From an uncultured Campylobacterales bacterium (lineage in GTDB: Bacteria > Campylobacterota > Campylobacteria > Campylobacterales > Arcobacteraceae), in assembly GCA_938084175.1 (NCBI GenBank), contig CALKDR010000032.1, forward strand, positions 1-32,994: DNA of 32,994 nt, in the 5' to 3' direction. Below the pieces are notes generated by a model. That model had not been told where the DNA came from. It ran no database searches and saw only the letters and a program-made list of their open reading frames with translations. The first letter of the stretch is position 1, and every line of letters begins with the position of its first letter. This document shows, one piece after another, positions 20,711 to 32,994 of this stretch. A program made the position numbers and the translations under genes.

Positions 20711-23700
20711 TTATTGTTTTGCCCACTTTCTTCTCAAGTCTAATGTATTTGGATATTCTAAACTAACTGGTATTTCTTGGAATAAGAATTTTTCATTATC
20801 AAGACCATCTTTACGTACTACTGCTCTTTTTGCACCATTTACATCTGTTAAATTTTTTAATACACTTGAAGAATAAGTATGACTTATTTCACCTTGCGTA
20901 TGATTAAATGGTTGGAATCTATTAATTCTTCTAGATTCAGCTTCTCCTGCATTAATTGGGAATGTTTCATATGTTCTTCCACCAGGATGAGAAACATGAT
21001 ATGTCATTCCACCAATAGATCTTTCATTCCATTTATCTACAATATCAAAAGTAAGTGGTGTGTCTACACCAATTGTTGGATGTAATGCAGACCAAGGTTG
21101 CCATGCTTTGTATTTAACACCAGCAACAAATTCTCCTTCAATACCTGTAGGACTTAAAGGAATTGCTACTGAATTACAAGTAAGAACATAACGTTCTGGA
21201 ACAAAATTATTTACTTTAATTTGTACTCTTTCTAAAGATGAATCAACATATCTTGACGTTCCTTGAGAACCACTTTCTTCACCAAGAACATGCCAAGGTT
21301 CAATTGCAGCACGAAGCTCAAGATGTACTTTTTCAACTGTTGCCATTCCATAAAGAGGGAATCTAAATTCAAAGAAGGGATCAAACCAATCAAGATTAAA
21401 ATCGTAGCCTTCATTATTTAAGAATTCAACAATATCTTTCATATCTTCTTTTACATAGTGCTCAAGTAAAAATTTATCATGTAGTTGTGTATTCCAACGA
21501 ACTAATTTATGAGTATATGGTTTTTTCCAAAATACCGAAACTAATGTTCTAATTAGAAGATTTTGCATTAGTGCCATTTTAGGATGTGGTGGCATATCAA
21601 AACCACGAAGCTCTAAAATTCCAAGTCTTCCTGTACTTGAATCTGGTGAATAAAGTTTATCTATACAAAATTCAGAACGATGTGTATTTCCAGTAATATC
21701 AGTTAACATATGACGGAATAGTCTATCTGTTAACCAAAAAGGAACTTCTTCATCTACTGGAATTTGAGAAAATGCGATTTCTAATTCATAAAGGTTTTCT
21801 AATCTTCCTTCATCAACCCTAGGTGCTTGTGAAGTTGGTCCAATAAAAGCACCAGAGAAAAGATATGATAAACCAGGGTGGTGTTGCCAGAAAGTAATGA
21901 AACTTCTAAGAACTTCAGGACGTCTTAATAATGGACTATCTTCAGGTTTCATAGCTCCTATTGTAACGTGGTTTCCTCCACCTGTACCTGTATGTTTTCC
22001 ATCAAGCATAAACTTTTCTGTTCCAAGCCTTGATTCTCTTGCATCATTGTAAAGTGTAAATAAATTTGATGTTAAGTCTTTCCATGAATTTACAGGTTGA
22101 ATATTTACTTCAATTACACCAGGATCTGGAGTAACTTTTATTGTTTCTAAACGTAAATCATGAGATGGTTCATAACCTTCTAATACAATTTTTATTTTTA
22201 ATTTTCTTGCAACTGCTTCAATAGAAGCTATTAAATCTAAGAAAGCATTTGTATGATTTAAAGGTGGTAAGAATATATAAAGTTTACCATCTCTTACTTC
22301 CACATTTAAACCAGTTCTGATAAAAGTATCTTCTGGATTATTTTTGTTTTTTGTTTTTCCAATATCTTCTACGCGTTTTTCTGCTTTTTTCAAGAATTTT
22401 TTTAGCTTTGGAGCTTTTGCAAATAAATCTGGCTCAAAATGTAATGGTAACTCATTATCAGGATTTTCTATAAGTGATTCCATTGGTAATCTAAGACCAA
22501 GTGGAGAATCTCCTGGAATTAAGAAAATTTTATCTCTTTTAAATGTCCAATAAGAAGTCATCCATTCATTTTCTGCAAAGTTAAGTGGTAAAATAAATCC
22601 AACGGGCTTACTTAATCCTTGGCTTAATACTTTGGCTATTGTTTTTCTTTCAATTGAACTATCAATATCATATTCTGTAGGATCTATATCAATAGGAAGT
22701 TCAGCTTCTTTCATTATGTAATGAATAGGGTCTTCATATGCAGGAAGTATTGTTTTATCAGATAACTTTAAAGTAAGTGCTAAATATTCAATGAATTTTT
22801 TAGCATCTTCATTTGTATACTCATGAGTTTCGTTCATATTAGCAAATAAACTTGGATCTTTCCAAATTTTCTTACCATCTTTTCTCCAAATAATTGACGT
22901 TTGCCATCTAGGAACTGCTTCACCTGGATACCATTTTCCTTGTGCATAATGAAGCATACCACCTTTACCAAAAGATTTAAGAAGTCTTCTTGATAAATTA
23001 TCCGCTAATTCTCTTTTTAAAGGACCATCAGCTGCTGTATTCCATTGTTCTGATTCCATATCATCAATTGATACAAAAGTAGGCTCTCCACCCATAGATA
23101 ATCTTACATCATTTTTCTCTAAATCAGCATCAACTTTATAACCTAAAGAATTAATAGCATCCCATTGGTCATCTCTATATGGTTTTGTTACACGTGGAGA
23201 TTCAAAAACTCTAGTAACAGTATTTGAGAAATCAAATTCAGTTTCACATTTATCACTTAAACCTTCAATTGCATGTGCACTTTCATAATGTGCTGTACAA
23301 GCAAGAGGAATATGACCTTCTCCAGCAAATAATCCACTAGTAGAATCAAGTCCAACCCATCCAGCACCTGGAAGATAAACTTCTGTCCAAGCATGTAAGT
23401 CTGTAAAGTCTTCTTCAGGACCACTAGGACCATCAAGTGATTTTTCATCTTGTTTTAATTGAACTAAGTATCCTGATACAAATCTTGCAGCAAGACCTAA
23501 GCTTCTTAGTACTTGAACAAATAACCAAGCATAATCTCTACAACTACCAAGTTTCTTTTTAAGTGTAGTTTCACAATCTTGAACACCTGCTTCTAATCGA
23601 ACTGTATAATTTAAATATTTGTAAATTTCAATATTTAAATAAACAAGGTAATCATTAATTTTACATTCTTTTAAATCAAGTGATTTAACGAATTTCTTAA

Positions 23701-24079
23701 GTTCTTTTCCATTTTCTGTAACTTCAAAATATGGTTTAAGCTCTGCACTTAATTCAGGTTTGTATTCAAAAGGAAATTGTTCAGCATATTCTTCAACAAA
23801 AAAATCAAAAGGATTAATTGAAATCAAATCTGCTTTAACTTCTACATCTATTCCAAATTCTTTTACTTTTTCAGGGAAAACAACTCTAGCCAAATAATTT
23901 CCATAAGCATCTTGTTGCCAGTTTATAAAATGGTTTTCAGGAGTTATTTTCATAGAATAAGCATCAATAGGTGTTCTACTATGTGGAGCTGGTCGTAATC
24001 GAATAGTATGTGGTGAAAGTGAAATATATTTATCGTATTTGTAATGTGTCTTATGAGATAGTATTACTTTTAATGACAT
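20711..24079 (-). CDS. Transglutaminase-like protein with C-terminal DUF2126
   Basis: At 1122 residues the largest gene of the cluster. Residues 1-265 are a transglutaminase-like unit with N-terminal region (KVILSHKTHYKYDKYISLSP) and triad Cys180 in KKLGSCRDYAWLFVQVL, His229 in DLHAWTEVYLPGAGW and Asp245 in VGLDSTSG. From about 310 on is DUF2126: RLSMGGEPTFVSIDDMESEQW, LHYAQGKWYPGEAVPRW, GGGNHVTIG and others such as TGTGGGNHVTIGAMKPEDSP, which in part resemble metal-binding glutamine-synthetase-like sequence. It is cytosolic. The order DUF2126, fused ATP-grasp, transglutaminase is a recurring triad. The ATG follows AAGGAA. The start is firm. Enzymatic role of DUF2126 is unknown. Confidence 0.9.
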   Translation of the reverse strand: MSLKVILSHKTHYKYDKYISLSPHTIRLRPAPHSRTPIDAYSMKITPENHFINWQQDAYGNYLARVVFPEKVKEFGIDVEVKADLISINPFDFFVEEYAEQFPFEYKPELSAELKPYFEVTENGKELKKFVKSLDLKECKINDYLVYLNIEIYKYLNYTVRLEAGVQDCETTLKKKLGSCRDYAWLFVQVLRSLGLAARFVSGYLVQLKQDEKSLDGPSGPEEDFTDLHAWTEVYLPGAGWVGLDSTSGLFAGEGHIPLACTAHYESAHAIEGLSDKCETEFDFSNTVTRVFESPRVTKPYRDDQWDAINSLGYKVDADLEKNDVRLSMGGEPTFVSIDDMESEQWNTAADGPLKRELADNLSRRLLKSFGKGGMLHYAQGKWYPGEAVPRWQTSIIWRKDGKKIWKDPSLFANMNETHEYTNEDAKKFIEYLALTLKLSDKTILPAYEDPIHYIMKEAELPIDIDPTEYDIDSSIERKTIAKVLSQGLSKPVGFILPLNFAENEWMTSYWTFKRDKIFLIPGDSPLGLRLPMESLIENPDNELPLHFEPDLFAKAPKLKKFLKKAEKRVEDIGKTKNKNNPEDTFIRTGLNVEVRDGKLYIFLPPLNHTNAFLDLIASIEAVARKLKIKIVLEGYEPSHDLRLETIKVTPDPGVIEVNIQPVNSWKDLTSNLFTLYNDARESRLGTEKFMLDGKHTGTGGGNHVTIGAMKPEDSPLLRRPEVLRSFITFWQHHPGLSYLFSGAFIGPTSQAPRVDEGRLENLYELEIAFSQIPVDEEVPFWLTDRLFRHMLTDITGNTHRSEFCIDKLYSPDSSTGRLGILELRGFDMPPHPKMALMQNLLIRTLVSVFWKKPYTHKLVRWNTQLHDKFLLEHYVKEDMKDIVEFLNNEGYDFNLDWFDPFFEFRFPLYGMATVEKVHLELRAAIEPWHVLGEESGSQGTSRYVDSSLERVQIKVNNFVPERYVLTCNSVAIPLSPTGIEGEFVAGVKYKAWQPWSALHPTIGVDTPLTFDIVDKWNERSIGGMTYHVSHPGGRTYETFPINAGEAESRRINRFQPFNHTQGEISHTYSSSVLKNLTDVNGAKRAVVRKDGLDNEKFLFQEIPVSLEYPNTLDLRRKWAKQ

Positions 24080-24202
24080 GTTTTTTCCTTAATAGATTGA
24101 TTTGTAAATTTAAAACTAGAAGATTTAATTTTGTACCAATTTTGTCTTTAATTCAGTTAAATGTAGACAAAGAACTTGTGACTTATTTATTATTTTAATA
24201 TT

Positions 24203-24208
24203 ATTATA
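24203..24208 (-). promoter_or_regulatory. Possible -10 box for the DUF2126 operon
   Basis: The 191-base gap before the DUF2126 gene (24080-24270) holds on the minus strand TATAAT, with CTTTTT about 16 bases upstream, 124 bases before the ATG. The gap also contains the inverted pair CTTAC/GTAAG near 24220-24235, which might end the preceding transglutaminase transcript. Otherwise I see nothing in the gap. Confidence 0.35.
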
Positions 24209-24270
24209 ACATTGTAAGCCTTACAAAAAGCGTAAGCTAAGTAAAATTAAAATTAATTTTTTATGTATAT

Positions 24271-25122
24271 TTAACAAAGTGTTACCCATACCCCAACATC
24301 TAAATTAGATTTTGCATTACCTGAAAATGATCCAGATATTGCGGGAATTGAATGAGCAAGTCTAGACACTGCAACTGGAATATGATCTTTCCCTACAATA
24401 TCTCCGATTGTAGGATCAAAACCTTTCCAACCAACTCCAGGTAAATAAACCTCTGCCCAAGCATGAGTAGAACCTATTTGATCTGACATTAGTGGGGCAT
24501 AAAGATAGCCACTTACAAAACGCGATGCTAAGCCTAAACATCTCACTGTTTCCATAAATAAAAATGCAAAATCACGACATGAACCTGAATTTAGTTTTAA
24601 TGTTTCTTCAACACTTTGAACTCCAGGTTCTTCTCTTATATTATAGATAAAAGTTTTATAGATATATTTTGTTATTTTTTGAAGCAAAGTATATGTTTGA
24701 ATATTCTCATTATTTTCCCAAATATTTAAAATCCAAGTATTTAGTAATTCTTTTGTTTGACTATCAGGCAAAACTGTATAAGGTGAAAGTAAAAACTTAT
24801 CATCTTTTTTATACTCAAAGGGATATGTTAATGCATAGTCTTCAACTATAAAATCTAATGGTGATTCATTAAACTGTTGAAGAATTACTTCACTCTCAAC
24901 AATAAGCTGTTGAGTTTTTTGATTAAATTCTACTACTGCAACAGAATTATTTTCAATATCTCGATGCCATAATATTTTTGTATGTGGAGTACATTTTATT
25001 AGAAAAGATTCAATTCTTAACTCATAATCTTCTCTAGGTCGTAAGAGTAGTTTATGAGTTCCTAGACTTACTTCTTCTGAATAATTATAGTAAGTACGAT
25101 GAATTATTTTATATCGTTGCAT
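24271..25122 (-). CDS. Transglutaminase-like protein (second stand-alone copy)
   Basis: The 283-residue protein has the bacterial transglutaminase-like N-terminal region (MQRYKIIHRTYYNYSEEVSL, KLLLRPRE) and catalytic core. Triad: Cys182 in NSGSCRDFAFLFMETVRCLG, His220 in GSTHAWAEVYLPGVGWKGF, Asp236 in GFDPTIG. The end (VGVWVTLC) is short. It resembles the N-terminal 270 residues of the DUF2126 protein, which has the same GSCRDxAxLF motif, more than the one at 17277 with GVCQDFAQF. The frame is open to 25161, but ATG 25122 has AAGGAT upstream and gives the family start. It lies 191 bases before the DUF2126 gene in the same direction and may have its own promoter. Confidence 0.87.
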   Translation of the reverse strand: MQRYKIIHRTYYNYSEEVSLGTHKLLLRPREDYELRIESFLIKCTPHTKILWHRDIENNSVAVVEFNQKTQQLIVESEVILQQFNESPLDFIVEDYALTYPFEYKKDDKFLLSPYTVLPDSQTKELLNTWILNIWENNENIQTYTLLQKITKYIYKTFIYNIREEPGVQSVEETLKLNSGSCRDFAFLFMETVRCLGLASRFVSGYLYAPLMSDQIGSTHAWAEVYLPGVGWKGFDPTIGDIVGKDHIPVAVSRLAHSIPAISGSFSGNAKSNLDVGVWVTLC

Positions 25123-25333
25123 ATTTGTATCCTTACTCAGATTTGTTTTTATAAAACACAATGCTCATTATGTATTAAATCCAAAACTATTCTATCAGAT
25201 TTCTTTAATCAAATGATTAATACTTGTTTATTTTATATTATTTTGGTGAAATTATTTATTTTTTGTTTAAATTTTTTTCAAATAAAATTATTTTCTGCCT
25301 TTTCACATAACAGAATTTTAAGCACTTAATGGA

Positions 25334-25339: not shown

Positions 25340-25374
25340 CTCCAAATTTATAAAAATATATGTGGGGAACTTTT

Positions 25375-28300
25375 ATGCCAAAAAGAGAAGATATAAAATC
25401 AATATTACTTATTGGTTCTGGACCAATTGTTATTGGACAAGCATGTGAATTTGACTACTCAGGTACTCAAGCTACTAAAACACTAAAAGAACTAGGTTAC
25501 AGAGTTGTATTAATCAACTCAAATCCAGCAACAATCATGACAGACCCTGAATTTGCTGATAGAACTTATATAGAACCAATTACTGAAGATGTTGTTTCTA
25601 AAATTATCAAAAAAGAAAATATTGATGCAATACTTCCTACAATGGGTGGACAAACTGCACTAAATGTTGCAACATCTATGTATGATAGGGGTATGTTAGA
25701 AGGTATTCATTTCCTTGGTGCTCATCCTGATGCTATTAAAAAAGGTGAAGATAGACACCTATTTAACGAAGCAATGATTAAAATTGGTATGGATTTACCA
25801 AAAAGTGCAAATGCTTATACTGTTGAAGAAGCAATGGTTGAAGCTAAAAAGATTGGATTCCCAGTAATTTCAAGAGCTTCATTTACTTTAGCAGGTGGTG
25901 GTTCTGGTGTTGCTTATAATATGGAAGAGTTTAAACTTCTAGCAGAATCTGGAATTGATGCATCTCCTATTAATGAAATTGAAATCATGGAATCAATGTT
26001 AGGTTGGAAAGAATACGAAATGGAGGTTATCAGAGATACTAAAGATAACTGTATTATCGTATGTTCTATTGAAAACTTAGACCCAATGGGTGTTCATACA
26101 GGTGATTCAACTACTATTGCTCCTGCACTTACTCTAACAGATAAAGAATATCAAGATATGAGAAATGCATCTTTTGCGATTCTTAGAGAAATTGGTGTTG
26201 ATACTGGTGGTTCAAATGTTCAGTTCTCAATTTGTCCAAATACTGGAAGAATGATTGTAATTGAAATGAACCCAAGAGTTTCAAGATCTTCTGCTCTTGC
26301 ATCAAAAGCTACAGGTTACCCAATTGCAAAAGTTGCAACACTTCTAGCTGTTGGATTTACTTTAGATGAAATTGAAAATGATATTACAGGTACAACTGCA
26401 TCGTTTGAACCTGTTATTGATTATATTGTTACAAAAATTCCTCGTTTTACTTTTGAAAAATTCCCAAAAGCAGATTCTACTTTAACAACTGGAATGAAAT
26501 CAGTTGGTGAAGTAATGTCAATGGGTAGAACATTTAATGAATCTATTCAAAAAGCACTTTGTTCACTTGAAACTGGTCTAGTTGGATTTGATGTTATTTC
26601 TACTGATTTAGAATTAATCAAAAAAGAAATCAGACGTCCTAACTGTGATAGATTACAGTACTTAATGGATGGAATGAGACAAGGTTTATCAAACGAAGAA
26701 ATCTTTGATTTATGTAAAGTTGATCCATGGTTCTTAACTAAATTTAGAGAAATGTACAATATTGAAAAATCAATGGATGTATCTATTTTAGAAAATGAAG
26801 AATCTATGAGAACTGCAAAAACAAATGGTTTTTCAGATGCAATGATTGCAAGATTAATTTCTAATTCTGAAAAAACAGTGTCTGAAGAAGATGTATATCA
26901 AGCCAGAAAAACTTTAGATGTTAACTTTGAATATAACGAAGTTGATACTTGTGCAGCTGAGTTTAAAGCATTAACTCCATACCTTTACTCGACTACAAAC
27001 ATTACAAAATTACCAAAAGTTGAAAAACCAGTAGAAACTGAAAAGAAAGTTATGATCATAGGTGGTGGGCCTAATAGAATTGGACAGGGTATTGAGTTTG
27101 ATTACTGTTGTGTTCATGCCTCGTTTGCTTTAAATGAAATGGGTATTAAAACTATTATGTATAACTGTAATCCAGAAACAGTTTCAACTGATTATGATAC
27201 ATCTGATATTTTATACTTTGAACCAATTGATTTTGAACACGTAAGATCTGTAATTGAAACTGAAAATCCAGATGGTGTTATTGTACATTTTGGTGGACAA
27301 ACTCCATTAAAATTAGCAAACGCTTTAACAGATATTGGTGCAAAAATTATTGGTACTACTGCTGAAGTAATTGATTTAGCAGAAGATAGAAAAAAATTCT
27401 CTAAGTTTGTTGATGAAGTAGGATTATTACAACCTGAAAATGGAACTGCTGTTGAAGTTACTGAAGCTATACAAATTGCAGAAAAAATTGGATACCCAGT
27501 ATTAGTGCGTCCTTCATTTGTACTTGGTGGAAGAGGAATGAGAATTGTTTACTCAACGCAAGAGTTAAAACAATACATGGATGCAGCGGTATCTGTTTCA
27601 AATGATGCTCCAGTATTAATTGACAAATTCTTAGATAGAGCAATTGAACTTGATGTTGATTGTATTTGTGATGGTAAAGAAGTTTATATTGGTGGAATTA
27701 TGCAACATATTGAAGAAGCAGGTGTTCACTCAGGTGATTCAGCTTGTTCTTTACCTCCAATTTCTATTTCAGATGAATTAATCAAAGAATTAGAAACAAA
27801 AACAAAAGCAATGGCACTAGGACTTGGTGTTGTTGGTTTAATGAATACTCAATATGCAATCCATAAAGGTCAAATTTACTTAATTGAAGTAAATCCAAGA
27901 GCTTCAAGAACAGTTCCTTTTGTATCTAAAGCAACTGGTATGCCTTTAGCAAAAGTTGCAACTAGAGTTATGTGGGGTGAGAGTTTAAGAAATGCACTTG
28001 ATACTTATAATTCTGATTTAATCTGGGAAGATAACGGTGTTTTAAAACCAATTTTAAGAGACCATGTAGCTGTTAAAGAAGCTGTATTCCCATTTAATAA
28101 ATTATCAGGTTCTGATATGATTTTAACACCTGAAATGAAATCAACTGGTGAAGTAATGGGTATTTCAGATAGTTTTGCTGAATCATATGCAAAAGCACAA
28201 AGTGCTGCTAAAAATGATTTACCAACAGAAGGAAAAGTATTTATTTCATTATGTGATTTAGATAAAGAATTTGCTCCTAAAATTGCTTCAGGATTAGTTG

Positions 28301-28632
28301 AACAAGGGTTTACTGTAGTTGCCACGGGTGGAACTCATAAAGCTATTAGTGATGCGGGAATTACTTGTGAAAAAGTTCTTAAAATTTCTGAAGGAAGACC
28401 TAATATTACAGATTCTATTACAAACGGTGAAATAGCACTTGCTTTTAATACATCTGATGGAAAAGAGTCATCAAAAGATGATGGTAAAAATATCAGACGT
28501 GCAGTATTAAAAGAAAATGTTCCTTATGTTACAACTGCAGCTGCTGCACTTGCTTGTGTTGAAGCTATGGCTGTGTTAAACAGAAAAGATGGATTAGGTG
28601 TTAAATCAATCCAAGAATTCTTAAACGACTAA
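25375..28632 (+). CDS. carB: Carbamoyl-phosphate synthase large subunit
   Basis: CarB makes carbamoyl phosphate from bicarbonate, two ATP and ammonia delivered by CarA, for pyrimidine and arginine synthesis. The 1085-residue protein has the normal two-half architecture: an ATP-grasp carboxyphosphate half (1-400, [20 protein letters not shown]), oligomerisation domain (400-550), carbamate-phosphorylating half (about 555-930, [18 protein letters not shown]) and the allosteric MGS-like domain (930-1085, beginning [11 protein letters not shown]). The frame is open to an ATG at 25360, but that overlaps the GGGGAA ribosome site; ATG 25375 ([16 protein letters not shown]) is chosen. carA is not in the window. 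The YrdC-like gene follows after 21 bases. Confidence 0.97.
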
Positions 28633-28653: not shown

Positions 28654-29097
28654 ATGGACTCATCTCTAGTTTATCTAGTTCAAACAGATACTACTGTTGG
28701 CTTTTCATCTTCAAACCATGAAAAGCTTTCAGATGTAAAACAAAGACCGAGATCAAAAAAAATACTTCATACAGTAGACTCTTTTAAAACTTTAAAAAAA
28801 CATACTAGAATTCCTAAGAAATTCAGAAAAGATGTAAGACGTGCCTCTTTAACTACATTTATCTACCCAAATGAAAAATCATTTAGAGTGATAAAAAAAG
28901 AAAATAGTTTTTATGAATTTATACATAAATTCGGAATTTTATACTCAACATCTGCTAATAAAACAGCAGAAAGTTTTGAATATAATTTTGCAAAAGAACA
29001 CTCAGATATAATTGTCGAAGATAAAAACAATTTTTATGAATCTTCTGCATCTTCTATTATTAAACTTACAAAAACAAATAAAAAAGCTATTAGGTAG
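28654..29097 (+). CDS. Sua5/YciO/YrdC-family protein, short form
   Basis: The family includes TsaC/Sua5, which makes threonylcarbamoyl-AMP for the t6A modification of tRNA. The 147-residue protein starts LVYLVQTDTTVGFSSSNHEK (family: vv..PTdT.YGL), then KQRPRSKKILHTVDSFKTL (family: KgRp...pl...v.s...l) and ends with LYSTSANKTAESFEYNFAKEHSDIIVED (family: STSAN.sG). It is about 40 residues shorter than E. coli TsaC (190) and lacks much of the RxP and Gly-rich middle. Such short forms are, as I recall, usual in Campylobacterota. It follows carB by 21 bases; its ribosome site is weak, so coupling to carB is plausible. Confidence 0.75.
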   Translation: MDSSLVYLVQTDTTVGFSSSNHEKLSDVKQRPRSKKILHTVDSFKTLKKHTRIPKKFRKDVRRASLTTFIYPNEKSFRVIKKENSFYEFIHKFGILYSTSANKTAESFEYNFAKEHSDIIVEDKNNFYESSASSIIKLTKTNKKAIR

Positions 29098-29105
29098 TAT
29101 AAAAA

Positions 29106-30410
29106 ATGTTTTTTTATAGAGAAAGTGAATTGAATCTTTTAAATGAAGACTTTGACAAAGCAAACTCAAGTTTATCTTTTATTTTTGCAAGAAGACAAGT
29201 AGGAAAAACAACATTATTAAATGAATATACAAAAAATAAAAACTGTTTATATTTATCAGCTTTTGAAACAATAAATTTCTTATTATTAAAAGAGTTCAAA
29301 AAAACAATAGATGATTTCACTAATAATAAAAATGAAGAAATGATAAAATCATTTGAAGATTTATTTATTTATCTAGGAAAAATAAAAATAGAGAATAAGA
29401 TTGTTATTGTTCTTGAAGACATTCAAGAACTTATAAAAATAGATAAAAAATTTTTAATTAATTTCAATAACTATTGGAATAAATACTTAAAAAATATGAA
29501 TATTCAATTTATTATTACATCTTCTTTTTTACCAAATGATTTTGAAAACTTAGCAATTGCAAAAAAAGTTGATAATAAAATTAAGTTAAAACCTTTAAGT
29601 TTTAATATCATTCAAAAGCTTTTACCAGATATCAAACTAGATGATCTTATGCTTGTTTATTCATTATTTGGTACAAATCCTACATATTTAAAATTTTATG
29701 ATACTAAAGAAAACTTTTTTATAAATATAAAAAATAATTTTCAAAAACTTGACAGTATTTTAATAAATGAAGGAATGAATATAATAAAAAAGGATTTATC
29801 AGATGTTCTTACTTATTGTTCAGTATTACATGCAATTTCTATTGGAAAAAAGAAAATAGGAGATATAGCTAGTTTTTTAAATCTAAAATCTTCTTATCTT
29901 ACTAGATATATGCAAAAACTTCTTGATTTAATGCTTGTAAATAAAATTGTACCAATAAACGAAAATCCTTCAAAAAGTAAATTTGGTAGATATGAAATTG
30001 ATGATAATTTTTTAAAGTTTTGGTTTTGTTATATATATCCAAATATTAATTTTCTTAATACTAACAAATTTGATAAGATCTTAAATGATATTGAAAAAGA
30101 TTATGATAGAAAGTTAGTTGAAGTTGCTTATAAAAAACATGTAAGCGAAGAAATCCAAAATGACCATATGTCTTTTTTAGATTATCGACCTAAAAAAATA
30201 GGATCATGGTGGAATAATAAAGATATAGAAATAGATTTAATAGCATATGATAGTAAAACTATCACTTTTATTGATTGCAAATGGACTAAAAGTAATTCTC
30301 TTGAAGATGATTATAAAGCTTTAGAAAGTAAAGCAAAAAAGTTTGAGACGCAATTAGAAAAAAAATATTTGATTTTTAATAAAGAAAAAACTAGTAAAAT
30401 AGCCTTATAA
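29106..30410 (+). CDS. AAA-type ATPase with C-terminal DUF234 (nuclease-like) domain
   Basis: The 434-residue protein is of the archaeal-type ATPase family. Residues 1-210 form a P-loop domain: the Walker A is FARRQVGKTTLL (27-38), with Ala28 where Gly is usual in G(R)RR.GKT. The Walker B is IVIVLEDIQELI (99-110), where family members usually have hhhDExQ; here the acidic pair is Glu104-Asp105. A winged-helix region follows (about 240-290). The C-terminal DUF234 domain has EIDLIAYD (375-382) and FIDCKWT (388-394), the E/D...DxK pattern of a PD-(D/E)xK nuclease-like fold. It follows the YrdC-like gene by 8 bases. Function of the family is unknown. Confidence 0.8.
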   Translation: MFFYRESELNLLNEDFDKANSSLSFIFARRQVGKTTLLNEYTKNKNCLYLSAFETINFLLLKEFKKTIDDFTNNKNEEMIKSFEDLFIYLGKIKIENKIVIVLEDIQELIKIDKKFLINFNNYWNKYLKNMNIQFIITSSFLPNDFENLAIAKKVDNKIKLKPLSFNIIQKLLPDIKLDDLMLVYSLFGTNPTYLKFYDTKENFFINIKNNFQKLDSILINEGMNIIKKDLSDVLTYCSVLHAISIGKKKIGDIASFLNLKSSYLTRYMQKLLDLMLVNKIVPINENPSKSKFGRYEIDDNFLKFWFCYIYPNINFLNTNKFDKILNDIEKDYDRKLVEVAYKKHVSEEIQNDHMSFLDYRPKKIGSWWNNKDIEIDLIAYDSKTITFIDCKWTKSNSLEDDYKALESKAKKFETQLEKKYLIFNKEKTSKIAL

Positions 30411-30478
30411 AAAGTGTAAACTTTGTATAAAGTAGATTTATATTATATAGTTTAAGCAACTATAAACACAAAGTAAAT

Positions 30479-30484
30479 TATAAT
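30479..30484 (+). promoter_or_regulatory. Probable -10 box of tRNA-Glu
   Basis: TATAAT lies 17 bases before the first base of the mature tRNA, giving a leader of about 10 bases for RNase P processing. No good -35 box is seen. Confidence 0.55.
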
Positions 30485-30501
30485 TTCAATCTTTTAAAAA
30501 T

Positions 30502-30577
30502 GACCCCGTCGTCTAGCGGCCAAGGACCTTAGGATTTCCTCCTGATGACAGAAGTTCAAATCTTCTCGGGGTCGCCA
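30502..30577 (+). tRNA. tRNA-Glu (anticodon TTC)
   Basis: A complete 76-base cloverleaf with encoded CCA. Acceptor stem GACCCCG (30502-30508) pairs with CGGGGTC (30567-30573), then G and CCA. The anticodon stem TTAGG (30529-30533) pairs with CCTGA (30541-30545, one G-U pair), loop ATTTCCT, anticodon TTC at 30536-30538. The T stem AGAAG/CTTCT (30550-30554, 30562-30566) encloses TTCAAAT. Its 5' part GTCGTCTAGCGGCCAAGGAC is the classical start of glutamate tRNAs. No other tRNA is adjacent. Phage-type genes begin right after, so its 3' end is a candidate integration site. Confidence 0.96.
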
Positions 30578-30855
30578 CTTAGTAGCTCCTATTTATAAGT
30601 CTTTATTTGATAAAAAATATGTTTCTAATTAATCCTTTTTAAGATAGTATAGCCTCTATACTTGTAGAACTAATAAAATACAATAAAGTATCAGATATTT
30701 ATTATGGTATGTATTCTTTTAAACATCCCCTAGGTATTAACTTTAAATATTCAAAAGTACTATATGAAAGACTTAAAATAGCTATAATAAAAAAGAAGCT
30801 AATAAATCCCCTTCTAATTCATGATAGGCTTAACATTATTAATCACAATATCTAA
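30578..30855 (+). other. Gap after tRNA-Glu with an orphan open frame (possible gene remnant)
   Basis: Between the tRNA and the helicase gene (stop at 30814) no complete gene is seen. One plus-strand frame stays open from 30643 to a TAA at 30853-30855 (70 codons), overlapping the helicase 3' end by 42 bases; the only ATG is at 30709 (MYSFKHPLGINFKYSKVLYE, 48 codons) and has no convincing ribosome site. The reading, for instance LVELIKYNKVSDIYYGM before it, looks protein-like. It could be the remnant of a gene cut when the element integrated, or chance in AT-rich DNA. A 7-base inverted repeat (30646-30652 with 30656-30662) lies at its start. Confidence 0.3.
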
Positions 30856-32157
30856 AACTTCATTTTTCTTTTTATCTATCCAACCTGTTGTTCTATCATT
30901 GTACATAGTTATATTTGCAGATTTTTTATTTTTAAATGGTCTCATAGCTCTTCCAATAATTTGTTGTAAACGTGCTGTATCTTCAAACGGAGGGTAGGCT
31001 GGACTTGCACAAAATACATTTTTAATCGAAGGAATATCTGTACCTTCTCCTAAAAGTTTTGAAGTACCTATTAATACATAATCAGTGATTTTATTTTCTG
31101 TTAAATCAGAAAAAATTTCATTTCTTTGTTTTGCTTTTGTACTTGCGTCTATATATAATACATTATATGAAGCTGATAACTCTTCTTTTAATGTTTGTCC
31201 TAATTCTAGTGTATTTACTAAAATTACTGATTGATTAGATTTAAACTGATTTCTTTCAAACTTTAGAGAATTTTTAATATCATTTAATATGAATTCTTTT
31301 CTTTTTTTTGACTTATCAATATTCTTTTTAAGCATCCCTAGTTTTATATTAAAATCTAATGAACGTAAGTATTCTTGTTCTATATCAATTTTATAGTTTG
31401 TATTTTTAATTTTAATATTTGGTTGAACTAAGAAGCCATTTTTATATAAATCTCTTATATCTACACTTGCCCTTTCTTCTCCAACTAAATCAAAAAGTCT
31501 TTGTTCATTTTTAATATTATTTCTATACGGTGTTGCAGTAAGACCGTGTTTATACATAGCAGGAATTGAAGATACCACATTATAATAAACATTAGCACTA
31601 GCCTTGTGCATTTCATCACAAATAATCTGTGAATATCTATCTTCTTTTATTCTTTGTAAAGTTGCTTCATTACCTAATGATTGCCATGTAGTAATTAAAA
31701 TAGGAGCACCAAACTCTTTTTTGGAAGAGCTAAGTTCACCTATCATTGCTGGGTCAATATCTAAAATATCTTGAAATCTTTTTTTTGTTTGTTTTACTAA
31801 ATCATATTTAGGAACTATAAAAAGTGTTCTTATATTTCTTTTAGCAATTAAATATGCAGCTATATTTGTTTTTCCAGAGCCTGTAGGTGCATAAATATAA
31901 CCTGTAAGTGTAGTTCGAGTAAATTTATCAATACAATCTTGTTGAAAATCTCGCGCTTGAAAGTTCTTGATATTTATTGTTTCTTGATTATCTATAATCT
32001 GACACTTATCTCTAGCTGGAACATTTACGTTCCATTTTATATCTGTGCAAATATTCTTAAATTTACTTAACAATGATAAAACCTCACCATAAGGGAAGAT
32101 TTTCTCAATAGTTCCATCTATTAGTTTAACTTGTGATCCTATTATTAATTGCATCAT
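30814..32157 (-). CDS. Superfamily 2 DNA/RNA helicase, phage type
   Basis: The 447-residue protein carries the SF2 helicase motifs in order: I APTGSGKTNIA (90-100), Ia LFIVPKYDLVKQ, II CDEMHKA with DEMH at 181-184, III LTATPYR (206-212), the C-terminal RecA domain with VILVNTLELG, motif V LLGEGTDIPSI (368-378) and VI LQQIIGRAMRPF (397-408). The N-terminal 85 residues are a short preface. It resembles UvsW-like replicative or repair helicases of phages. The annotated ATG (32157) is only two bases from AGGAG; the next ATG three bases on, at 32154, is better spaced. It runs leftward toward the tRNA, after a polymerase-like gene, and belongs to the phage-type block. Confidence 0.85.
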   Translation of the reverse strand: MMQLIIGSQVKLIDGTIEKIFPYGEVLSLLSKFKNICTDIKWNVNVPARDKCQIIDNQETINIKNFQARDFQQDCIDKFTRTTLTGYIYAPTGSGKTNIAAYLIAKRNIRTLFIVPKYDLVKQTKKRFQDILDIDPAMIGELSSSKKEFGAPILITTWQSLGNEATLQRIKEDRYSQIICDEMHKASANVYYNVVSSIPAMYKHGLTATPYRNNIKNEQRLFDLVGEERASVDIRDLYKNGFLVQPNIKIKNTNYKIDIEQEYLRSLDFNIKLGMLKKNIDKSKKRKEFILNDIKNSLKFERNQFKSNQSVILVNTLELGQTLKEELSASYNVLYIDASTKAKQRNEIFSDLTENKITDYVLIGTSKLLGEGTDIPSIKNVFCASPAYPPFEDTARLQQIIGRAMRPFKNKKSANITMYNDRTTGWIDKKKNEVLDIVINNVKPIMN

Positions 32158-32261
32158 ATCTCCTAAGAATATTTTATTTCTTTCAGATTATATGGAAAAA
32201 TTCTCCAATGATAGAAAACAATGACAATTTGTAATGTTTTTAGTTTTGATAAAAGATATAA

Positions 32262-32994
32262 TCAGAAATCAAAAAGTGACTCATGTTTTTGATTAAATGG
32301 TTCTATAAGTTTATAAGCCTCTTTTATATAATAATCAAAGTCTAAAAATTCATAAGAAAAGTCTTGGATATTATTACAAAGTTCTACTTTGTATCCTACA
32401 TTTATTCCTATTACTCTTTGTTCTGAATCTTTTTTTAGAGGTGGAAGAATCTTTTTTAAAGGAAAGCCATTTTTACTTATAAAATATCTAATAGTATTGG
32501 ATAATGGCATATAAGTTTTTTGTAATGAATATACTTTTTCAAGGACTAAGTTGATATTTTTAGTAGCTTTAAAATTTAATAAAAAGTCATATTTATTTCT
32601 ATGATTGTGTATAAACTCTTCTATTGAAGTGCCTTTTATTAAGTATGCTTCTACTGCTTTTTGAACTACTAAAGCAGAGTGGTTTTGATTCCATGCTAAG
32701 TCATATTTATAGGCACCTATTTTTTTAGCTTCCCCATTTTCTTTTAAAGCTACATAGTTGTTTACATCTCTAATCCAAAGCTTTTCATAGATTATTTCTT
32801 CTAGTTCTAAGCCTGTAAAGTCTTGCCATTTATTTGATATATTTTCATATCTTGACTTATCTTTTTTGGCTATTTTAAAAGTAAGGCCATCTGTATTTGC
32901 TTGTATTAAAGTTACTGTATCTATTTGCATAAGTTTCTCAGCAAGCATACACAACATCAATTGTCCATTTAGAGTAATATCCAAAGTCATCTTA
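32262..32994 (-). CDS. Phage-type DNA polymerase, C-terminal part (partial)
   Basis: A gene entering from the right edge and running leftward; 242 residues are visible from an internal Met at 32990, and the frame stays open to the edge. The segment LDITLNGQLMLCMLAEKL then VTLIQANTDGLTFKI (about 3-40) matches a phage polymerase B pattern (vTitGQL.LLmLiE.le...v.v.saNTDGi), where the TDG Asp is a metal ligand of the palm, equivalent to the DTD motif C of B-family polymerases. Downstream NYVALKENGEAKKIGAY recalls the KkY.a...G..k.kG motif. Protein length, exonuclease domain and start lie outside the window. The helicase follows after 104 bases on the same strand. Confidence 0.75.
   Translation of the reverse strand, partial: KMTLDITLNGQLMLCMLAEKLMQIDTVTLIQANTDGLTFKIAKKDKSRYENISNKWQDFTGLELEEIIYEKLWIRDVNNYVALKENGEAKKIGAYKYDLAWNQNHSALVVQKAVEAYLIKGTSIEEFIHNHRNKYDFLLNFKATKNINLVLEKVYSLQKTYMPLSNTIRYFISKNGFPLKKILPPLKKDSEQRVIGINVGYKVELCNNIQDFSYEFLDFDYYIKEAYKLIEPFNQKHESLFDF

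Follow-up and report, generated by a model that had tools for sequence, protein, structure and literature searches.

Family B DNA polymerases (PolB) are rare in bacteria, and a 2026 survey of bacterial polymerases describes minor groups that have no N-terminal domain (PMC12926913). The bacterial groups G1–G3 are argued to have come in independently, probably from viruses (PMC7544198). Among helicases of superfamily 2 (SF2), T5 D10 has branch-migration and unwinding activity (PMC5180179). The locus discussed here combines both kinds of gene. It lies at the right end of a stretch of 32,994 nucleotides (the window, to which all coordinates refer unless a contig or locus is named), which is the entire contig C32 of G000, a Poseidonibacter-like metagenome-assembled genome (MAG), and it consists of a gene for the glutamate transfer RNA (tRNA-Glu), followed by an SF2 helicase gene and part of a family B polymerase gene. 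A preliminary description took it for the start of a prophage or phage-like element joined to tRNA-Glu. No publication on this pair of genes or on tRNA-Glu islands in Arcobacter was found in the open-licence literature.

We consider it probable that the locus is instead a part of a Poseidonibacter-like chromosome whose content varies, with tRNA-Glu as its left and the aroB operon as its right boundary, and that it holds five accessory chromosomal genes in about 7.8 kb. The MAG comprises 1,744,425 bases in 74 contigs (completeness 85.25%, contamination 2.36%). It was compared with nine relatives in its genus (a set of 10 genomes, including Poseidonibacter ostreae, G094, P. lekithochrous A1R12, G093, and uncultured Campylobacterales and Arcobacter MAGs), with a family set of 104 genomes, and with an evenly drawn phylum sample of 397.

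The polymerase belongs to the same family (phrog_1252) as those of Sashavirus, Gorganvirus and Klebsiella phage Carvaje, over 98% of its length and at approximately 41–42% identity, and has in common with them the DxE exonuclease motif, the DVxSxYP motif A and the NTDG motif C. Unlike theirs, it is found among cellular genes, without the exonuclease, single-stranded DNA-binding protein and primase genes that flank the phage version. The minor bacterial PolB groups described in the survey (PMC12926913) are similar in being rare in bacteria, in lacking an N-terminal domain and in having intact proofreading motifs. The helicase shares the SF2 core with UvsW, T5 D10 and XPB-type helicases, as indicated by its matches to phrog_6819 and XPBII, but has no phage or plasmid homologue at 60% identity and none in the IMG/VR contig search. 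As in integrative elements anchored at tRNA genes, synteny breaks at the tRNA 3′ end, and an integrase element occupies the same tRNA in one relative (G099); in contrast to such elements, the block in the window has no integrase or repeat, and its genes are chromosomal elsewhere.

The gene block between tRNA-Glu and aroB

The preliminary description was right about what can be seen: tRNA-Glu is followed only by a leftward SF2 helicase gene and a phage-type polymerase gene that runs off the edge, as ARAGORN, Rfam, Pfam and PHROG all indicate. The right edge of the window is the end of contig C32. The polymerase fragment (32262–32993, minus strand, open at the contig end) encodes the C-terminal 243 amino acids, residues 406–648 of 648, and matches phrog_1252 (E value 3.6e-62) over profile positions 425–656 of 663, while no Pfam match was found for 32262–32993. 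The same profile has two matches in G000, at C32:32280–32993 and at C1:107507–108157, the last base of C1 being 108159. Residues 1–217 are at the very end of C1 and residues 406–648 at the very end of C32. The two pieces do not overlap, and are 92–93% identical to one gene of the relatives. The end of C1 aligns to nucleotides 1–653, and the end of C32 to nucleotides 1216–1943, of the intact polymerase gene of G095, which implies that about 562 bp are unassembled. Because the contig breaks inside the polymerase gene, the locus gave the impression of being the border of something larger.

On C1, the start of the polymerase gene is 21 bp from an M32 carboxypeptidase gene (PF02074, 1.4e-164), beyond which are an AlkB-like dioxygenase (PF13532, 2e-31), SelO, and then the aroB-mscS operon. 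All these flanking genes are cellular, either core or accessory. Between tRNA-Glu and aroB in G000 there are thus about 7.8 kb and five genes, namely SF2 helicase, polymerase, M32 carboxypeptidase, AlkB-like dioxygenase and SelO, which sit between two genes that abut in three of the nine relatives, where aroB is directly the 3′ neighbor of tRNA-Glu (G092, G095, G096). In G094 this neighbor is a gene of an FtsX-type transporter cluster, and aroB follows after four genes. The insertion point of the window is therefore seen independently from both contigs. G095 also has helicase, polymerase, M32 and AlkB genes in the same order in its chromosome, 95 kb from its tRNA-Glu. The idea that these 95 kb are themselves an integrated element was rejected, the parts inspected carrying aroB and glyS-type core genes.

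The MAG is fragmented and contaminated at 2.36%, and the exact tRNA-Glu/helicase junction occurs in no relative, as would be seen if the junction were an assembly chimera. However, the other end of the block, on C1, leads into aroB, which is the direct neighbor of tRNA-Glu in three relatives. A fit on both sides is not expected of a chimera, and we therefore regard this explanation as very unlikely.

We give hardly any credence to a prophage or phage-like element that begins with the helicase and polymerase and is mostly missing from the contig. This reading draws on the phage-type character of the polymerase (phrog_1252, with 953 matching phage records and a best listed identity of 42%), on the proven use of tRNA-Glu as an insertion site in G099, and on the presence in G076 of two diverged polymerase relatives (33% and 31%) whose contigs also carry exonuclease, ATPase and HNH genes of phage type. 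Against this, the other half of the polymerase gene is located beside M32, AlkB, SelO and aroB, and G095 has the same block in its chromosome, at a distance from the tRNA. A search of G000 for integrases (PF00589) gave five matches (C36, C55, C30, C34, C51), with none on C32 or C1; the earlier statement that no integrase is visible in the window is therefore borne out, and none lies between the polymerase and aroB either. The terminase large subunit phrog_2 had no match in the G000 assembly and was positive in 11 of 14 control genomes, in a search limited to this one family and an assembly that is 85% complete. Only one tRNA-Glu match was obtained in G000, with no second or partial copy detected; copies of the kind present in G097 and G099 gave E values of about 1e-15 to 1e-16, and a copy of under about 25 bases might escape. 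The far border, at the SelO/aroB junction, has no tRNA-Glu repeat, and exact runs shared with the 3′ half of tRNA-Glu reach at most 11 bases elsewhere in the window and 10 bases in the terminal 20 kb of C1. The checks that the preliminary description itself had proposed, on the far border and on the block in relatives, thus turn out against it. A false prophage can thus be removed from the annotation, and the case shows that a contig break can imitate one.

The polymerase and the helicase

An alignment was made of 22 polymerases, consisting of 8 chromosomal ones, 2 from G076, 1 from G443, 2 phage records and 9 of 14 IMG/VR loci (5 being left out; the viral scan was queried with a single protein). 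The polymerase has Exo I–III and motifs A, B and C. In all 22 sequences Exo I retains its DxE, Exo III its D and motif A its DV-SxYP, while motif C reads NTDG. Throughout the set, phages included, Asn thus replaces the first Asp of the usual DTD motif (NTDG for the usual DTDS). The Asp that is retained in motif C would be the metal ligand, as in family B polymerases. In G000 itself only Exo I–III and motif C are assembled. Exo motif I is at residue 6, and the protein has no N-terminal domain.

The structural model of the polymerase has a predicted local distance difference test score (pLDDT) of 69.4. Foldseek gave 202 matches at E ≤ 0.001 (best 9.8e-13), with template modelling (TM) scores of only 0.27–0.39, and the 50 matches listed, of the 202, are all family B polymerases or complexes containing one. 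The matches suggest that the protein has a family B fold, a conclusion tempered by the low TM-scores and the middling model.

Pairwise ratios of nonsynonymous to synonymous substitution rates (dN/dS) for the polymerase are 0.051–0.153 in 11 comparisons, indicating purifying selection. Among the 20 listed of its 953 phage matches, identities are 41–42%. In a FastTree analysis of the 22 sequences, the 8 chromosomal polymerases split from the 14 others with support of 1.00. The polymerase, of apparent phage ancestry, is chromosomal and under purifying selection. It documents a selectively maintained chromosomal polymerase with phage kinship in Arcobacteraceae, and provides a group-level example for the proposed viral origin of bacterial family B polymerases, which PMC7544198 puts forward for G1–G3.

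The polymerases of G076 are on two related phage-like contigs (L033 and L034), each with a diverged copy at 31–33% identity to the chromosomal one. Genes of the exonuclease VIII, ATPase and HNH types come before one of these copies.

The helicase gene (30814–32157, minus strand) encodes 447 amino acids of a UvsW/XPB-like SF2 protein, and is 104 bp from the polymerase gene. Its Pfam matches are ResIII (3.7e-27), DEAD (3.8e-14) and Helicase_C (2.8e-12), its PHROG matches are phrog_16 “DNA helicase” (8.4e-62) and phrog_6819 “Holliday junction branch migration helicase” (3.1e-11), and its best match in the PDB is XPBII (2e-17). The SF2 motifs I, II, III and VI are present as APTGSGKT (90), DEMH (181), TATP (207) and QQIIGRAMR (398). 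The N-terminal region, which in UvsW/XPB-type helicases holds a characteristic DNA-binding or damage-recognition domain, is less clear: the PDB match begins at residue 65 and the predicted model is poor (pLDDT 43). Purifying selection is indicated here too (pairwise dN/dS 0.058–0.134, 9 comparisons). The helicase matches 1787 phage records, all at below 60% identity and at 24–29% among the 20 matches listed. The plasmid search gave no match above 60% identity for either gene; for the helicase none reaches 60%, with up to 36% among the matches listed. Joint capture of the pair from a Sasha-like phage is not supported, because the helicase beside the polymerase in phage Sasha is only 22% identical, over the generic core.

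tRNA-Glu as an integration site

The tRNA-Glu(ttc) gene at 30502–30577 (plus strand; ARAGORN; Rfam RF00005, 44.5 bits) forms the left edge of the variable region and is present in all 10 genus genomes. The boundary that had been placed between 30550 and 30814 is real as a synteny break. DNA similarity over 30441–30830 stops at 30577–30580, at most 3 bases from the tRNA 3′ end, in all nine other genus genomes, so that synteny is broken exactly at the tRNA-Glu 3′ end, which is what is looked for in an island integrated at a tRNA. Across the ten genomes there are eight different first 3′ neighbors of tRNA-Glu. Besides aroB and the transporter gene described above, these are the helicase in G000, a 321-residue gene in G098, a 312-residue gene of an integrase element in G099, a GntR/UTRA regulator in G093, a GGDEF/EAL protein in G091 and a WYL regulator in G097.

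The suggestion that the tRNA 3′ end serves as an integrase target is confirmed in G099. Here tRNA-Glu and an exact 49-base copy of its own 3′ end enclose an insert of 5.3 kb (L073 9797–15146). The insert carries four genes: a tyrosine integrase (PF00589, 5.5e-20), a T5orf172 gene and two further genes without clear family. The 321-residue gene is 11 bp beyond the 49-base copy in G099, and 16 bp from the intact tRNA-Glu in G098. G098 shows the corresponding site without the insert, and G099 the occupied site. It is concluded that elements do integrate at the tRNA-Glu 3′ end in this genus, and the site is a concrete hot spot with occupied and unoccupied versions in relatives.

In G097, a relative of the G099 integrase is found in three pieces beside a partial copy of tRNA-Glu that is not identical to the genome's own tRNA. 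A 28.6 kb element between tRNA-Glu and this partial copy was considered and dropped: the copy shares an exact run of only 13 bases with the genome's own tRNA-Glu, the integrase is broken, and the interval contains penicillin-binding-protein and trypsin/PDZ-protease genes. G000 has an integrase on C30 (L006 331–1440), close to the contig start, which shares 36.6% identity with the integrase at tRNA-Glu in G099.

The helicase gene ends 236 bp from tRNA-Glu. The 236-bp junction (30578–30813) has no recognized relative and no homologue among the compared loci. Most of a start-less open frame of 70 codons (30643–30852, plus strand; no Pfam match at E ≤ 1) falls within it. A frame of this length was reached in 70 of 5000 single-base shuffles on the plus strand and in 115 of 5000 on either strand, which is of weak significance; it is possibly a remnant of an earlier insertion.

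The block might then be a genomic island that once integrated at tRNA-Glu, its integrase and far repeat having since been lost. The position of the synteny break, the G099 element with its exact repeats, the broken integrase in G097 and the possible remnant frame are all in keeping with such a history. On the other hand, elsewhere in the window and over the terminal 20 kb of C1 the tRNA 3′ end is repeated over no more than 11 bases, and no repeat occurs at SelO/aroB; the genes of the block have homes in relatives that are not islands; and homologous exchange of the flanks also yields variability at a tRNA. We consider this history unlikely, if still deserving some weight. The 7.8 kb could have entered by old site-specific integration or by homologous recombination between the flanks, and the latter is favored because no repeat or integrase remains.

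Distribution and possible role of the pair

The polymerase is found in 10 of the 104 family genomes, including 7 of 10 in the genus. The three genus genomes without it are 86–88% complete, and G076 is counted among the ten only for the 31–35% identical copies on its phage-like contigs. The helicase is found in 12 of 104 (at E ≤ 1e-30), again with 7 of 10 in the genus, and is not found in G091, a complete genome. Both genes are present in G000, G092, G093, G094, G095 and G099, and are adjacent in five of these six. In the phylum sample each occurs in 5 of 397 genomes. The helicase–polymerase block is accessory. CarB, used as a control gene, was found in 100 of the 104 family genomes. The helicase is 75–78% identical to those of G001, G035 and G077, for which the CarB identities are 87%, 92% and not found, respectively. 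Taken with the comparison for G087 and G088 given below, the sequence identities indicate that helicase inheritance is partly vertical and partly horizontal.

SelO, M32, MsrA, AlkB or an FtsX-type transporter share a stretch with the polymerase or helicase in G000, G092, G095, G036, G091 and G094, and the same company is seen in G099, G093, G098, G077 and G035. None of them is in the stretches of G055, G087 or G001, those of G087 and G001 being short or differently sized. The compared stretches differ in length, and this tally is not a statistic. AlkB, MsrA and SelO are stress genes.

We propose that an ancestor acquired the polymerase from a phage prior to the diversification of the genus, and that the gene would have been stabilized in the chromosome and moved within the genome. 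The helicase would remodel or branch-migrate stalled or recombining DNA, like UvsW, T5 D10 and XPB-like helicases, and the polymerase, whose proofreading motifs are conserved in relatives, would fill in or restart synthesis. The likeliest predicted role of the pair would be accessory DNA repair or replication restart. A wider proposal, which we put forward tentatively and which may well be wrong, is that a family B polymerase of phages, not belonging to the three main bacterial PolB groups, has been domesticated in Poseidonibacter and a few relatives, and is paired with a UvsW/XPB-like helicase as a chromosomal damage-response or replication-restart module that travels with AlkB, MsrA and SelO genes.

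The pair could alternatively be an anti-phage defence system rather than a repair system. Its distribution is patchy, the helicase matches the PADLOC models PbeA (1.7e-22) and type IV restriction (3.9e-15), the ATPase upstream of tRNA-Glu matches PDC-S27 (1.7e-23), and a gene with a weak NACHT domain (0.00043, below the Pfam cut-off) is near the pair in G095 and G099. However, the PADLOC matches of the helicase span the generic SF2 core inside models that are much longer, no PADLOC model matches the polymerase or the NACHT-like protein, and the pair is not accompanied by any conserved nuclease or sensor, so that a defence role seems improbable. The NACHT-like gene encodes a large membrane-type protein, at L030 3713–6379 in G095 and L037 16197–18869 in G099.

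Several observations weigh against a chromosomal repair module in the form proposed here. We infer the joining of C1 to C32 across 562 bp (by the G095 gene) that contain polymerase motifs A and B and are unassembled in G000, and the start-less frame at 30643–30852 may be the scar of an integrated element. The two genes are 10.9 kb apart in G092. The polymerase occurs without the helicase in G091, G036 and G055, and the helicase without the polymerase in G098, G001, G035, G077, G087 and G088; this separation in nine family genomes makes it less likely that the two form an obligate machine. The helicase is 89% identical to those of G087 and G088, from another genus, compared to 86% for their CarB, which makes horizontal movement likely, the pair being still mobile in some sense. 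The company of AlkB, SelO and MsrA may be coincidental.

To the left of tRNA-Glu, the window contains carB (25360–28632, plus strand), the core gene for the carbamoyl-phosphate synthase large subunit (Pfam CPSase_L_D2, 2.5e-100), followed by a Sua5/YciO/YrdC-like gene (28654–29097, plus strand; PF01300, 1.6e-7) that is present in 10 of 10 genus genomes. The last gene before tRNA-Glu encodes an ATPase_2/DUF234-type ATPase (29106–30410, plus strand; PF01637, 4.9e-14; DUF234, 8.2e-14), which by gene order adjoins tRNA-Glu in 6 of 10 genus genomes. This is the protein with the match to the PADLOC candidate PDC-S27. Its local G+C content is approximately 20%, and it is 43–66% identical to the copies in relatives, compared to 69–96% for its neighbors. 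The left side of tRNA-Glu is variable too, with CarB–Sua5–DUF234 in six genus genomes and a different gene set in G092, G096, G097 and G099. Further to the left, at 20711–25161, there are two adjoining minus-strand genes with transglutaminase domains, the larger of which is also a DUF2126 putative amidoligase.

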